NCBI GenBank assembly: GCA_020847735.1 | Contig: JADLBL010000008.1 | Coordinates: forward strand, 1 to 64,000 | Source of the DNA: Candidatus Eisenbacteria bacterium | GTDB taxonomy: Bacteria > Eisenbacteria > RBG-16-71-46 | DNA: 64,000 nucleotides | Direction of reading: 5' to 3' | In this document: piece by piece, positions 50,332 to 61,915 of the stretch | Position numbering within the stretch: the first letter of the stretch is position 1 | How the letters are laid out: every line of letters begins with the position of its first letter | The notes under the pieces: model-generated | Databases searched by the model: none | What the model saw: only the letters and a program-made list of their open reading frames with translations | Told to the model about the DNA's origin: nothing | Position numbers and translations under genes: made by a program

Positions 50332-50883
50332 CTAGTGATGCCCGGAGTGGCCGTCATCAGTGACAGTCTGGAAGTGAGCGACCATGTCCCCAGACGCGGT
50401 CATCGTCCCTCCGGACATCATCCCGCCCATGCTGCTCATCATCTCGAGCATCGAGCGGTCCATTTGCATCATGTAGCGGGTCTGGACCCGCATGAGGGTG
50501 TCAGGCATGAAGGTGCAGAGCGTGCCCGCTTCGTTCCATGAAAACGTCCCCGCCGTCGCATGGTAGGTATCCATGTGCCCGAGCATGGTCGGATCGTTCA
50601 TGACGGCGTCCATCGACCCGTGGGCCGGCATGGAAGCATCTGGGCATGCACCGCTCATGTCGGCCTCACTCACGAGGTGGAAGCCGCTCTCAACCGCACT
50701 CCGGTCCACGGCGACCCCAAAGTCGAGCGACACGCCGGCATCGAGCCGCACGGCCGTCGCGCCATCCGCTGGGATCACCTTCAGTACGGCTGCGGGCGCT
50801 GGCTGCATCATGCTGGTGCTGGGCTTCGAACATCCCGTGAGCGCACCAAGGAGCAGTGTGAAGACAACGAGTCGAGTGAGCAT
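50332..50883 (-). CDS. Met/His-rich lipoprotein with Ig-like (Big_5) domain
   Basis: 183 residues, ATG 50883 with AGGAGG 4-5 bases upstream. Lipobox: VVFTLLLGALTGCSK, with the lipid Cys at about 18. Residues 34-75 (VLKVIPADGATAVRLDAGVSLDFGVAVDRS) fit a bacterial Ig-like Big_5/SwmB fold. The rest is crowded with Met and His: 22 Met in the protein, in clusters such as YMMQMDRSMLEMMSSMGGMM, and a C-terminal DDGHSGHH. Met motifs bind Cu(I) and Ag(I), and His tails bind Cu(II). With CusCBA and CopA next to it, a periplasmic copper-binding role is likely (inference). I know no named family with this layout. Confidence 0.85.
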   Translation of the reverse strand: MLTRLVVFTLLLGALTGCSKPSTSMMQPAPAAVLKVIPADGATAVRLDAGVSLDFGVAVDRSAVESGFHLVSEADMSGACPDASMPAHGSMDAVMNDPTMLGHMDTYHATAGTFSWNEAGTLCTFMPDTLMRVQTRYMMQMDRSMLEMMSSMGGMMSGGTMTASGDMVAHFQTVTDDGHSGHH

Positions 50884-51597: not shown

Positions 51598-52620
51598 TCA
51601 TGATCCGGCGCCTCCTTCGACCATCGCTTCCAGGCTGGTTCTCAGTTCGGCCGTGGCCGCTTCGGGAGACACAGGGTTCGAGTAGAACCCGGTGCCCACC
51701 TCGAAGCCGGCCACCTGTGCCGGGCGTGGCAGGACGGCGATGTGCCAGTGGAAGTCCTGGTCGAGCGTGGTCCAGTAGCCCGGCCGACTGTCTCGATTGG
51801 GACCGCTGTAGAGGAAGAGGTTGAATGCAGGTTCGGGCAGCGTCGCCTCCAACGATCGCAGGAGCATCTTGAGCAGGCCCGCCAGATCCAGCAGGACGTT
51901 GGAATCCGCGGTTTCAAAATCCGGCGAATGCTCTCTCGGCAGGATCCAGCACTCGAACGGATGGCGGGAGGCAAACGGCGCGATCGCGACGAAGTACTCG
52001 GATGTCGCAATGACGCGCCGCCCGTCTTCGAGCTCCTCCCGCAGGATGTCGCAGAACACGCAGCGCTCCTTGAGACGGAAGTGCGACCGCGCGCCGTCGA
52101 GGATTTCCTTTAAAGCCTTGGGGGTAACCGGGAGCCCGATGATCTGGGAGTGGGAGTGGCTCGGAAGGGTCGCCCCAGCCATGACGCCCTGGTTCTTGAA
52201 GACGAACACCGCGCGGATGCGGAGATCCCGCTTCAGGTCCGCGATGCGCGCCGCCCACGCGGCAAGAACGAGCGCGATGCGGCCCCGAGACAACTCGGAG
52301 AGCCGGTCTTCGTGCTCGGGAGTCTCGATCACGATTTCGTGGGCGCCCGTACCGGAGGCGGCGTCGTACATGCGCTCCGCCCTGCGCGTGAGCGGTTCCT
52401 CGATACGAAGCGCGGGACGCAAGTTGGCGACTACCCGGACCTCCCAGCCGGGCAGGTTTGGACTTCGTCCCGACGGGCCCCACACGGCAATCTCGGGCGG
52501 GGTCAGCGACTCATTCCCAGCGCAGAACGGACACGCCCCCGTTTCCACGGGACGCACCTGCCAGGGGTCCTCGAGCACGACCCACCGGCCTGTACACGGA
52601 TCCTTGCGAAGAGCACTCAT
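51598..52620 (-). CDS. galT: Galactose-1-phosphate uridylyltransferase
   Basis: 340 residues. GalT swaps UMP between UDP-glucose and galactose-1-phosphate in the Leloir pathway. The active-site motif is LPSHSHSQIIG (normally H-P-H-x-Q, here H-S-H-S-Q, with the second His the nucleophile). Zinc-site cysteines are in ACPFCAG and RCVFCDILREE; also VRVVANLRPAL and WHIAVLPR. This is the DUF4931-like/prokaryotic branch that is common next to glycogen genes. ATG 52620 has GGAGGGGCGGG upstream. No galK or galE adjacent; finding it among copper genes is odd. Could instead be an ADP-glucose phosphorylase-type enzyme of the same superfamily. Confidence 0.88.
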   Translation of the reverse strand: MSALRKDPCTGRWVVLEDPWQVRPVETGACPFCAGNESLTPPEIAVWGPSGRSPNLPGWEVRVVANLRPALRIEEPLTRRAERMYDAASGTGAHEIVIETPEHEDRLSELSRGRIALVLAAWAARIADLKRDLRIRAVFVFKNQGVMAGATLPSHSHSQIIGLPVTPKALKEILDGARSHFRLKERCVFCDILREELEDGRRVIATSEYFVAIAPFASRHPFECWILPREHSPDFETADSNVLLDLAGLLKMLLRSLEATLPEPAFNLFLYSGPNRDSRPGYWTTLDQDFHWHIAVLPRPAQVAGFEVGTGFYSNPVSPEAATAELRTSLEAMVEGGAGS

Positions 52621-52674: not shown

Positions 52675-53292
52675 CTATTTCCGGACTGCCAAGCCGACGC
52701 CGGCCCTTTCCATCGAGGCCACGAGCTGCTTCACCATCGGGTCGATCTGTCTCTCCGGCGTATCGGACTTGGGGAAACTCGAGCGCGTTAGACCGGACCA
52801 GAGCAGCTTGCCGTCCGAGACGCGGTAGAGACGGGTCTCCATGTCGATGACGCGGGTTTCGATCAACTGGGTCTGATTGCGCGAATAGCGGGACCAGCTC
52901 TGGCCGCGGGAGGAGGCAAACTGTCCAGCCGGCCGGTAGTAGCTCCGCACGGTCTCGTCATCCATCACCTTGGTGACGAGGATTCCGTCGCAGTGCCCCT
53001 TGTGGACCTCCATGTCTACCCTCGCGCTATCGAGCAGGTTGTCGCCAACCATGGCGTAGCTGGCCTCTCCCTCGACCCCGCGGTCTCTAAGGGCGTCGGC
53101 GAAACGATCCTCAAAGACACGCCTCGGGTCGCCCGTACGCGTCGCGTGAATGACCATCACGTGGCGGATGGGCTCCGTCCCGGCCCCGGGCTCGTGCCAC
53201 GTTCCGCGGAGCTTGGTCCCCGCGGCACAGCCGGTGACCGCCATCAGCCCGACGACAAGAAGACTCCCGACCACCAATGCCGGACCCTTCAC
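52675..53292 (-). CDS. Lipoprotein encoded by the 3' part of the fused frame
   Basis: Read alone from GTG 53292 this gives 205 residues with its own ribosome site (AAGGAGAGGCAC). Lipobox: LVVGLMAVTGCAAG, lipid Cys at about 22. The mature part (KLRGTWHEPGAGTEPIRHVM, VFEDRFADALRDRGVEGEAS, RVIDMETRLYRVSDGKLLWS) resembles DUF4136-type envelope lipoproteins. The good ribosome site and complete signal suggest that it is translated separately, at least part of the time; otherwise its signal would be an internal membrane helix of the kinase-like protein. Function unknown; position inside the copper island suggests metal stress. Confidence 0.78.
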   Translation of the reverse strand: MKGPALVVGSLLVVGLMAVTGCAAGTKLRGTWHEPGAGTEPIRHVMVIHATRTGDPRRVFEDRFADALRDRGVEGEASYAMVGDNLLDSARVDMEVHKGHCDGILVTKVMDDETVRSYYRPAGQFASSRGQSWSRYSRNQTQLIETRVIDMETRLYRVSDGKLLWSGLTRSSFPKSDTPERQIDPMVKQLVASMERAGVGLAVRK

Positions 53293-54411
53293 GTGCCTCT
53301 CCTTCTGGCTTCCACCGGGGTTGGCGCCGTTTTCGACGGGCAGCCTCGCCGGCGCTGCGCTGAATCCGATCATGATCCGGCTGTGACAGGGTGAAACGCG
53401 CTGAAAACGAACGGATGCACCGAGCAAGGCAAGTAATCGGATGCAGAGCACCTGACGGAACCGGTACTCGCCCGTGCCGGCACCAAACACGCGCGTGAGG
53501 CTCTCCTCGAGATCGGGCAACGCCTCTCCCAGCGAGAAGACCCCAAGTTCGACAGTCGGCGCGGTACCGGCCGCCGCAGCGATTCTCACCTCCAGCCAGC
53601 CCGGTGGTGGCACGCTGTCGAGCAATCCAAAGATCAGCGCGCGCACGCTGAACGCGACCGCGCGCCGGTCCGCTTCGACGGCGCAGGATTTCGGGTGATC
53701 GATCAGGATGGCCCTTTGCCCGTCCTGCCGGGCGCCGGCGACATCCCGGATGATTCGCTCCAGCAGCGGAGTCAGATCGACGCGCTCATGCCGCGGCTCC
53801 GAAATGCGCGCGATCTCGGCGAGATCGTTGAGCAGATGCCGGGCCCGGGCGGCCTCCTCCCGGATCACCTGACCAGCGAACACGACGCCGCTCCTGCCAC
53901 CGGTCCCGAACGCTGCAATCAGGGACTCCGCCTGCCCCTCGATCGCAGCCAGCGGCCCCTCCGTCTGCGCCATCAGCGCAAGGCCGGTCTCGCCCAGGGC
54001 GGCGAGCCTGCCCTGCTCCGCCGCCTGCGCCCGCGCCCGTCGGCTCGCGTCGGCATAGCCGCCGACGAGCCCGCCGATCAGGAGCAGAAGGACGAGTTCG
54101 ACGGCGGAATCCATCACCCGCGAATCCGCTCGCGCGAGCTGCCGAAGGTGCGGGAGGTAGCCGATCACGGCGAATGCCGCGATCCCGATCCCTCCCCTGC
54201 TACCCGCCGCCATCGCGGCCAGGATGACGGGCAGATAGAAGAGCCGCCGCAGCGCGTCATGCACGCCGAGCTGGTGCAGCGCAGCCGTGTAGTGCATCAC
54301 CAGGATCAACGCGACTGCGGCTGCACAGAGCGCCACGATCTCGACTTTGCGATGTTCGAGTGGAGCGGAAGGAGAGACCCGCTCCGCCAGATTCGCCATG
54401 TCGTGCTTCAT
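52675..54411 (-). CDS. Degenerate histidine kinase fused in frame to a lipoprotein
   Basis: A single open frame of 578 codons. Start ATG 54411 has GGAGGG 8 bases upstream. Residues 24-120 hold four or five membrane helices. A HisKA-like dimerisation helix follows (RLAALGETGLALMAQTEGPL, 135-154), but the H-box H-E-x-x-N-P-L reads A-Q-T-E-G-P-L: the phospho-acceptor His is Ala148. The ATPase region (about 235-350) lacks the N-box Asn (AFSVRALIFGLLDSVPPPG) and has no D-x-G-x-G box. It therefore cannot act as a normal kinase. With no stop, the frame continues at residue 374 into a complete lipoprotein (next entry). No response regulator gene is adjacent. Possible role: membrane sensor or scaffold without kinase activity (inference). 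Confidence 0.8.
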   Translation of the reverse strand: MKHDMANLAERVSPSAPLEHRKVEIVALCAAAVALILVMHYTAALHQLGVHDALRRLFYLPVILAAMAAGSRGGIGIAAFAVIGYLPHLRQLARADSRVMDSAVELVLLLLIGGLVGGYADASRRARAQAAEQGRLAALGETGLALMAQTEGPLAAIEGQAESLIAAFGTGGRSGVVFAGQVIREEAARARHLLNDLAEIARISEPRHERVDLTPLLERIIRDVAGARQDGQRAILIDHPKSCAVEADRRAVAFSVRALIFGLLDSVPPPGWLEVRIAAAAGTAPTVELGVFSLGEALPDLEESLTRVFGAGTGEYRFRQVLCIRLLALLGASVRFQRVSPCHSRIMIGFSAAPARLPVENGANPGGSQKERHVKGPALVVGSLLVVGLMAVTGCAAGTKLRGTWHEPGAGTEPIRHVMVIHATRTGDPRRVFEDRFADALRDRGVEGEASYAMVGDNLLDSARVDMEVHKGHCDGILVTKVMDDETVRSYYRPAGQFASSRGQSWSRYSRNQTQLIETRVIDMETRLYRVSDGKLLWSGLTRSSFPKSDTPERQIDPMVKQLVASMERAGVGLAVRK

Positions 54412-54482
54412 TGGGTAGCCCTCCTCCTGACGGACTCGAACCGAAGAATCGCCAAGGACTAGATGGCTCGACGCTGCCGGCC

Positions 54483-54986
54483 TCAGTCGCGCCGGGCGTC
54501 CCTTCGCACGAGGGCCATGCCGCATTTGGGACAGTCTCCGGGCGTGGAAGCCGTGACGTCGGCGTGCATCGGACAGACGTAGGTGGCCAATGGGGCACTG
54601 GGAACAGCGGGCGAACCGTTCCCACCCGTCACGGCGGGAGCCGGAGCCGCGAGCTGCCCCGACGCCATCGCACGCCATTCCGGAATCGCCGCCATCCGCT
54701 TGATCAGGCTCTCCATGAAGGCCTGGTCTTCGAGCAGCGCGTCGGCGAGAAGCGCTCGACCGGTCTCGTCGGCGAGCACTTGATCGATGCTCTTGCGCAG
54801 CTTCTTCTCGGAGGCTGTCGGCTTCGGGGCACGGGACGTCTGCATCGCGCCGTGATTGTGACCCCCGCCGCCCCCACCTCCCATCATTCCGCACTGCGCG
54901 CGAGCCGGAGACGGCCCCACCACCACGACCACCAGCCAGGCACCCAGGATCCCTGCCGCCACTGAACGAAGATTCGGTACTCGCAT
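54483..54986 (-). CDS. Secreted protein with heavy-metal-binding domain
   Basis: 167 residues, ATG 54986 with GGAGGGAG 9 bases upstream. Signal peptide to about residue 31 (GILGAWLVVVVVGPSPARAQ). The mature start is CGMMGGGGGGGHNHGAM, a Met/Gly/His-rich patch that could hold copper. A helical middle (KKLRKSIDQVLADETGRALL, AFMESLIKRMAAIPEWRAM) follows. The end is a heavy-metal-binding domain of the YHS-like HMBD type: TYVCPMHADVTASTPGDCPKCGM, with Cys-Pro-Met-His and C-P-K-C-G-M. The same module starts CusB in this cluster. Likely a periplasmic copper chaperone. Immediately downstream of cusA (106-base gap). Confidence 0.87.
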   Translation of the reverse strand: MRVPNLRSVAAGILGAWLVVVVVGPSPARAQCGMMGGGGGGGHNHGAMQTSRAPKPTASEKKLRKSIDQVLADETGRALLADALLEDQAFMESLIKRMAAIPEWRAMASGQLAAPAPAVTGGNGSPAVPSAPLATYVCPMHADVTASTPGDCPKCGMALVRRDARRD

Positions 54987-55092
54987 CGGTACTCTCCCTC
55001 CTTCGCGTGGGCGCGCCCTCCGGCGGCCCGCGACACATGAGAACCATGTTGAGTCAGCTACCCGATTCGAACCCTTCAACTCTTCAGACTGC

Positions 55093-61381: not shown

Positions 61382-61732
61382 CTACTCGACGATCAGGCTG
61401 CCGGCGACCATGTCCATCGCGCAGGCGTAGCGGATGGCGCCGGGCTTGCGCGGCGTGAAGCGGACTTCGACCGGCTTGTTGAGGGGCAGCGGCTGCTTGA
61501 TCCCGAACTCGCTGACGACGATGTCGGTCGCACAAGTGCGCTCGACGGTGCGGGTGACCACGAGACGCACAGGCTGGCCCGCTTTCAGGTGCACGGAGGC
61601 CGGCTCGAAGCCGTTCTTCGTCACTGTGACCACGATCCGCCGCTCCTGCCGCGTCGTGGTCGCAGCGCCCGCAGAAGTGGTGAGGGCAGCGAGGGTCGTC
61701 ATGACCGCCAAGACGCCAAAAAGGATCTTCAT
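61382..61732 (-). CDS. Cupredoxin-like periplasmic copper protein
   Basis: 116 residues, ATG 61732 with AGGAGAAGTCC upstream. Signal peptide to about residue 24 (VLAVMTTLAALTTSAGAA). The mature chain is a Cupredoxin_1-like beta barrel: RIVVTVTKNGFEPASVHLKAG, VRLVVTRTVERTCATDIVVS, LNKPVEVRFTPRKPGAIRYA, ending CAMDMVAGSLIVE. The Cys-x-Met-x-Met (C-A-M-D-M) near the end and Thr-Cys-Ala in the middle may be copper ligands. It looks like the small cupredoxins often found beside CopA and Cus genes. Ten bases separate it from cusC, so it heads the cus operon. Confidence 0.9.
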   Translation of the reverse strand: MKILFGVLAVMTTLAALTTSAGAATTTRQERRIVVTVTKNGFEPASVHLKAGQPVRLVVTRTVERTCATDIVVSEFGIKQPLPLNKPVEVRFTPRKPGAIRYACAMDMVAGSLIVE

Positions 61733-61915
61733 GGACTTCTCCTGTCTGGTCGCAATGGACCAAAGGGTCGAACGAACGATCACAACAGGGATGGGGGGCG
61801 CTGCTCGAGCCGCAGGCTTGCCGGGACGCACCACGGGCCGAGGATCCGGCGCGACTGGAACGTTGAGCCGTCACACGCAGGGCATGCGTGTGCTCAACAC
61901 GGCGGTCTGGGCGAG

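Follow-up and report, generated by a model that had tools for sequence, protein, structure and literature searches.

Histidine-kinase homologues without catalysis are an already known kind of protein. DivL of Caulobacter is a pseudo-histidine-kinase that has no phosphorylatable His and plays a non-catalytic role, and one of its homologues has Ala at the H-box His site (PMC4211667); in Corynebacterium glutamicum, a pseudokinase variant of ChrS, itself inactive, works by forming heterodimers with an active kinase (PMC9491836). A lipoprotein and a membrane sensor kinase come together in the NlpE-CpxA system of E. coli, which is linked to the sensing of copper and of lipoprotein trafficking (PMC6538781). 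The protein described here also resembles the sensor histidine kinases with four transmembrane (TM) helices of the same class and of other phyla (HisKA/HATPase_c, with a DUF4118-like membrane part): the likeness covers the membrane part, the DHp helices, the domain order and the length, at about 26-33% identity. In a limited search of the literature, we found no pseudo-kinase fused to a lipoprotein and no internal lipoprotein start of relevance.

We analysed a stretch of 64,000 nucleotides from a Candidatus Eisenbacteria bacterium (the window; contig JADLBL010000008.1, assembly GCA_020847735.1), in which a single reading frame joins a degenerate homologue of these kinases to a complete lipoprotein. 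We propose, with a probability of about 0.6, that two co-transcribed genes were fused by the loss of a stop codon before two species of the genus split, that the locus makes two products, and that the fusion is tolerated.

The joined frame in its copper cluster

Translation of the minus strand from the ATG at 54411 to the TAG at 52675-52677 gives 578 codons with zero internal stops, in agreement with the initial annotation, in which the kinase frame ran into the lipoprotein without a stop. The parts of the locus and its two neighbours are as follows (all coordinates are those of the window).

54483-54989, minus strand: upstream neighbour, secreted protein with a heavy-metal binding domain (HMBD; PF19335, E 1e-13)
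54412-54433, minus strand: region upstream of the kinase ATG with the ribosome-binding site AGGAGGAGG, seen in the sequence and kept in the sister species
52675-54411, minus strand: joined frame, pseudo-histidine-kinase plus lipoprotein, 578 codons by translation, open also in the sister species
54037-54411, minus strand: N-terminal membrane sensor, residues 1-125, probably four TM helices
53782-54036, minus strand: DHp-like dimerisation domain, residues 126-210, with the H-box AQTEGP (by alignment; PF00512 match below the cut-off)
53362-53781, minus strand: degenerate CA (ATPase) domain, residues 211-350, in which no N, G1, F or G2 box is left (by alignment)
53293-53361, minus strand: linker, residues 351-373, without coding constraint by its substitution pattern; carries the ribosome-binding site of the lipoprotein
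53299-53304 (approximate), minus strand: AAGGAG Shine-Dalgarno sequence of the internal start, kept in the sister species by sequence comparison
52675-53292, minus strand: lipoprotein, residues 374-578, 205 aa, GTG start, lipobox LMAVTGC, of a distant DUF4136-like family
51598-52620, minus strand: downstream neighbour, galactose-1-phosphate uridylyltransferase-like (GalT-like; PF01087, E 1e-11)

The same frame stays open beyond the ATG, upstream to 55047, but this extra stretch overlaps the HMBD gene in a different frame and lacks coding support. Residues 1-125 were assigned to the membrane on the basis of hydropathy, the helices of a low-confidence model, the alignment with membrane histidine kinases and a dN/dS of 0.08. 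The predicted structure of the fusion (two sequences as input) had a mean pLDDT of 38 and was used for secondary structure only.

The frame lies in a minus-strand run that goes from 61 kb to 50 kb and encodes an outer-membrane efflux protein, CusB-like and CusA-like pump parts, the heavy-metal-binding protein, the fusion, the GalT-like enzyme and a small Ig-like protein; upstream of this run are a cupredoxin and a P-type ATPase (the ATPase named from its sequence). The copper cluster of the initial annotation is thus borne out by copper/silver efflux neighbours, and a link of the fusion itself to copper is plausible from gene position. The cupredoxin-like gene of the cluster is at 61382-61834. 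Next to the cluster, the gene at 50332-50883, which is also found in the sister species, encodes a small Met-rich lipoprotein with an Ig-like domain and a C-terminal HSGHH, and from these features it looks metal-binding. In at least three genera of the family (that of the window, G005 and G014), a GalT-like gene adjoins the copper cluster, and a second GalT-like copy is found in the window's genome on another contig (C20:118505). Small proteins resembling cupredoxins adjoin galT, at the place of the window's kinase, in two other genera (loci L018 and L072).

Catalytic boxes lost from a conserved protein

The H-box of the window protein reads M-A-Q-T-E-G-P-L (residues 147-154). Alignment with homologous histidine kinases places Ala148 at the His site; all the aligned homologues that span the box have His at this position, in the pattern HE(I/V)(R/K)NP, with one HEVRTP. 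The N-box Asn, D-x-G-x-G (G1), the F box and GxGLG (G2) are all degraded in the same alignment, which upholds the reading of the initial annotation (a pseudo-histidine-kinase with Ala148 and neither the N-box Asn nor D-x-G-x-G). Profile searches agree: the Pfam HisKA match (PF00512) has an E-value of 0.02, below the family cut-off, and matches to the NCBIfam models for normal kinases are weak (best E 1.8e-5), whereas E-values against histidine kinases of other genomes go down to 1e-18, through homology of the membrane and DHp parts. Both the phosphorylatable His and the N, G1 and G2 ATP-binding boxes of a functional sensor histidine kinase are missing, and the protein combines kinase homology with catalytic residues lost under purifying selection, as a pseudo-histidine-kinase does. 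Judged from its sequence, it is a catalytically dead homologue of the four-TM histidine kinases.

A same-genus MAG, Candidatus Eisenbacteria bacterium GL140_6_metabat_35 (the sister species), encodes the entire 578-residue frame at 88% identity, with AQTEGP in the identical H-box, no stop, and the identical internal start. Between the two, synonymous divergence is 0.54 and dN/dS for the whole frame is 0.11; by part, the ratio is 0.08 (membrane), 0.10 (DHp), 0.11 (CA) and 0.08 (lipoprotein). Strong purifying selection acts on both modules, which are maintained as proteins, the kinase part despite its lost catalytic residues.

These data bear on whether the stop and the His codon are missing through an error of sequencing or assembly, or through recent decay into a pseudogene. 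Distant relatives do have normal boxes and stops, and the gene can decay, as a 3′ remnant in another genus illustrates (see below), but two separate MAGs share the H-box and the absence of a stop, and dN/dS is about 0.1 across the whole kinase, so that we consider error or recent decay very improbable. A normal H-box and a stop in close relatives had been named in the initial annotation as the signs of such an error or decay; the sole close relative, at 88% identity, has conserved both the lost His and the fusion.

The kinase-lipoprotein pair was found in two of the 47 genomes of the class, the window's genome and the sister, and no match to either the pair or the kinase membrane part was obtained in the remaining three genomes of the genus. 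Elsewhere in the class, members of the kinase family are stand-alone genes with normal H-boxes. In another genus of the family, a 3′ kinase remnant is found between a cupredoxin gene and galT (G005 contig C43:386-625, locus L018): it matches residues 304-358 (56% identity), the last part of the cupredoxin gene stands in place of the sequence ahead of it, and there is no in-frame stop before galT and no lipoprotein. A third genus has the cupredoxin gene and then galT, without a kinase. The remnant and the kinase-less genus together point to an old kinase slot in this family's copper cluster, which was lost on at least one occasion. Separately, a 112-residue open frame near a contig end (G061 contig C46:8983-9297, locus L030) matches the membrane part of the sensor only, and may be a gene cut off there or a sensor that stands alone.

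A profile search for HATPase_c (PF02518) found 31 places in the genome, none of them on the 166-kb contig of the window, and there is no response regulator on this contig. The partner of the pseudo-kinase, if any, would therefore be encoded elsewhere. By analogy with DivL and the ChrS variant, the protein most likely acts as a non-catalytic dimerising or docking module, which would modulate another kinase or a response regulator.

The linker and the internal start

Comparison of the window with the sister species places the end of the constrained kinase at about residue 350, the end of the CA domain. Residues 351-373 contain 17 differences, distributed 5/7/5 over codon positions 1/2/3; the corresponding counts are 28/15/114 for the kinase (Fisher p 6e-4 against the linker) and 11/10/56 for the lipoprotein (p 1.4e-3). 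The divergence of the linker (17/69, 25%) compares with that of the intergenic stretch before the kinase (15/71, 21%), and no clear coding signal was found in any of the linker's frames. The sequence past residue 350 behaves as a former intergenic region without a stop, in which the AAGGAG site and the surroundings of the GTG are the best-conserved stretch.

At the GC content of this genome (71%, 463 kb sampled), a 23-codon stretch is expected to be free of stops 57-66% of the time, so an open linker is by itself unremarkable. Neutral drift between the two species would keep it open with a probability of about 0.5-0.8, so that the comparison has no statistical power to detect selection for an open linker; a conserved open linker is equally expected of a functional linker that tolerates sequence change. 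A frameshift to a hidden stop was also considered: the +1 frame ends in a TGA that overlaps the GTG (GTGA), but in both species the same frame already meets a stop within the IMI codons 346-348, immediately ahead of the linker.

We also scanned 463 kb of this genome for start codons that combine a ribosome-binding site with a lipoprotein signal. Among the eleven lipoprotein-like starts found, that of the window stands first in the length of its upstream open frame (587 codons). By eye, the next two (437 and 203 codons) lie where the upstream gene is in a different frame and ends normally: this genome does contain long upstream open frames that are shadows, and of the three longest among the 11 starts, only the window case is a run-on in the upstream gene's own frame.

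The lipoprotein part has a signal sequence with a lipobox Cys (V-T-G-C395), which is invariant across 10 aligned family members, and its own start codon, GTG 53292, with AAGGAG ahead of it at normal spacing; start and site, both recognised in the initial annotation together with the lipobox, are kept in the sister species. Third-position changes around the internal start are lower (3/18), a non-significant difference (p 0.30). DUF4136 profile matches were obtained in five of the ten family members (best E 3e-6), and the window lipoprotein itself scores 15.5 bits against PF13590, short of the cut-off of 32.8; a profile of the lipoprotein gave no match to solved structures. Its relatives are stand-alone genes (23-33% identity), and no histidine-kinase H-box was found within about 1.5 kb of them in other genomes.

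The conserved internal AAGGAG/GTG start very probably yields free lipoprotein as well. The lipoprotein might instead come solely from the fusion, released by lipoprotein signal peptidase at the internal lipobox, with the internal start idle. The intact lipobox and Cys and the missing stop between the parts are consistent with this, but AAGGAG is conserved at normal spacing before the GTG while the rest of the linker drifts, and the relatives of the lipoprotein are stand-alone genes; we consider it improbable.

Fusion, free lipoprotein and known systems

The initial annotation had offered two products or a lost stop as alternatives, and the evidence favours both together. In the reading we prefer, the stop codon of the kinase was lost before the two species split, which turned adjacent co-oriented genes into a single frame. 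Translation from 54411 must give the 578-residue fusion, since there is no stop in frame, and ribosomes that start at the internal AAGGAG/GTG would give the free lipoprotein. The fusion would have four TM helices and a cytoplasmic pseudo-kinase, followed by the lipoprotein signal as a further membrane segment and a periplasmic lipoprotein domain. The unconstrained linker makes a tolerated loss of the stop seem to us likelier than a fusion kept by selection, on a comparison that covers two genomes. The functional "wiring" of the sensor to the lipoprotein that had been suggested at first is unsupported: the linker has no amino-acid constraint and the pair occurs in no further genome searched.

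We consider it unlikely that the fusion is a selected functional protein, in which the dead kinase would work in reverse, passing a cytoplasmic or membrane signal through the extra TM helix to the periplasmic domain, while the internal start sets the ratio of tethered to free forms. The frame is open in two species with both modules under purifying selection, the basic residues ahead of the signal segment suit an N-in/C-out helix, and the authors of the DivL study proposed that pseudo-kinases could carry cytosolic signals to the periplasm (PMC4211667). These basic residues, however, coincide with the ribosome-binding site, the linker drifts without amino-acid constraint and would be stop-free under neutrality with a probability of about 0.5-0.8, and the pair is found in two genomes and no third. 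It is likewise unlikely that a dead kinase has turned reverse signaller, with a fused lipoprotein domain in the periplasm as its target, while free lipoprotein is added from the internal start.

The stop-less junction with its internal start offers a clear test of whether losing a stop within an operon can produce one gene with two products, a membrane-tethered form and a free one; should the fusion prove idle, it would remain a good illustration of how genes fuse neutrally in high-GC DNA.

Compared with the known systems, the locus shares some features with each. The full-length four-TM sensor kinases that could be aligned keep HE(I/V)(R/K)NP or HEVRTP, normal ATPase boxes and their own stop, whereas the window protein has lost every catalytic box and has no stop after the kinase. 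DivL, unlike the window protein, retains the N, G1, F and G2 boxes, contains PAS domains and has no lipoprotein fused to it. The ChrS variant differs in that it arose in the laboratory, by a frameshift within the CA domain of a kinase that is normal in other respects, and in its connection with heme, not copper. NlpE and CpxA are encoded by separate genes, with an active kinase and an unrelated lipoprotein, so that the likeness is thematic only; for the lipoprotein part, the likeness to DUF4136-like lipoproteins is a weak profile likeness of the family, with the window member far under the family cut-off. Pseudo-histidine-kinases are known but few have been studied, and the one in the window has lost every catalytic box, not the His alone, and yet is conserved.
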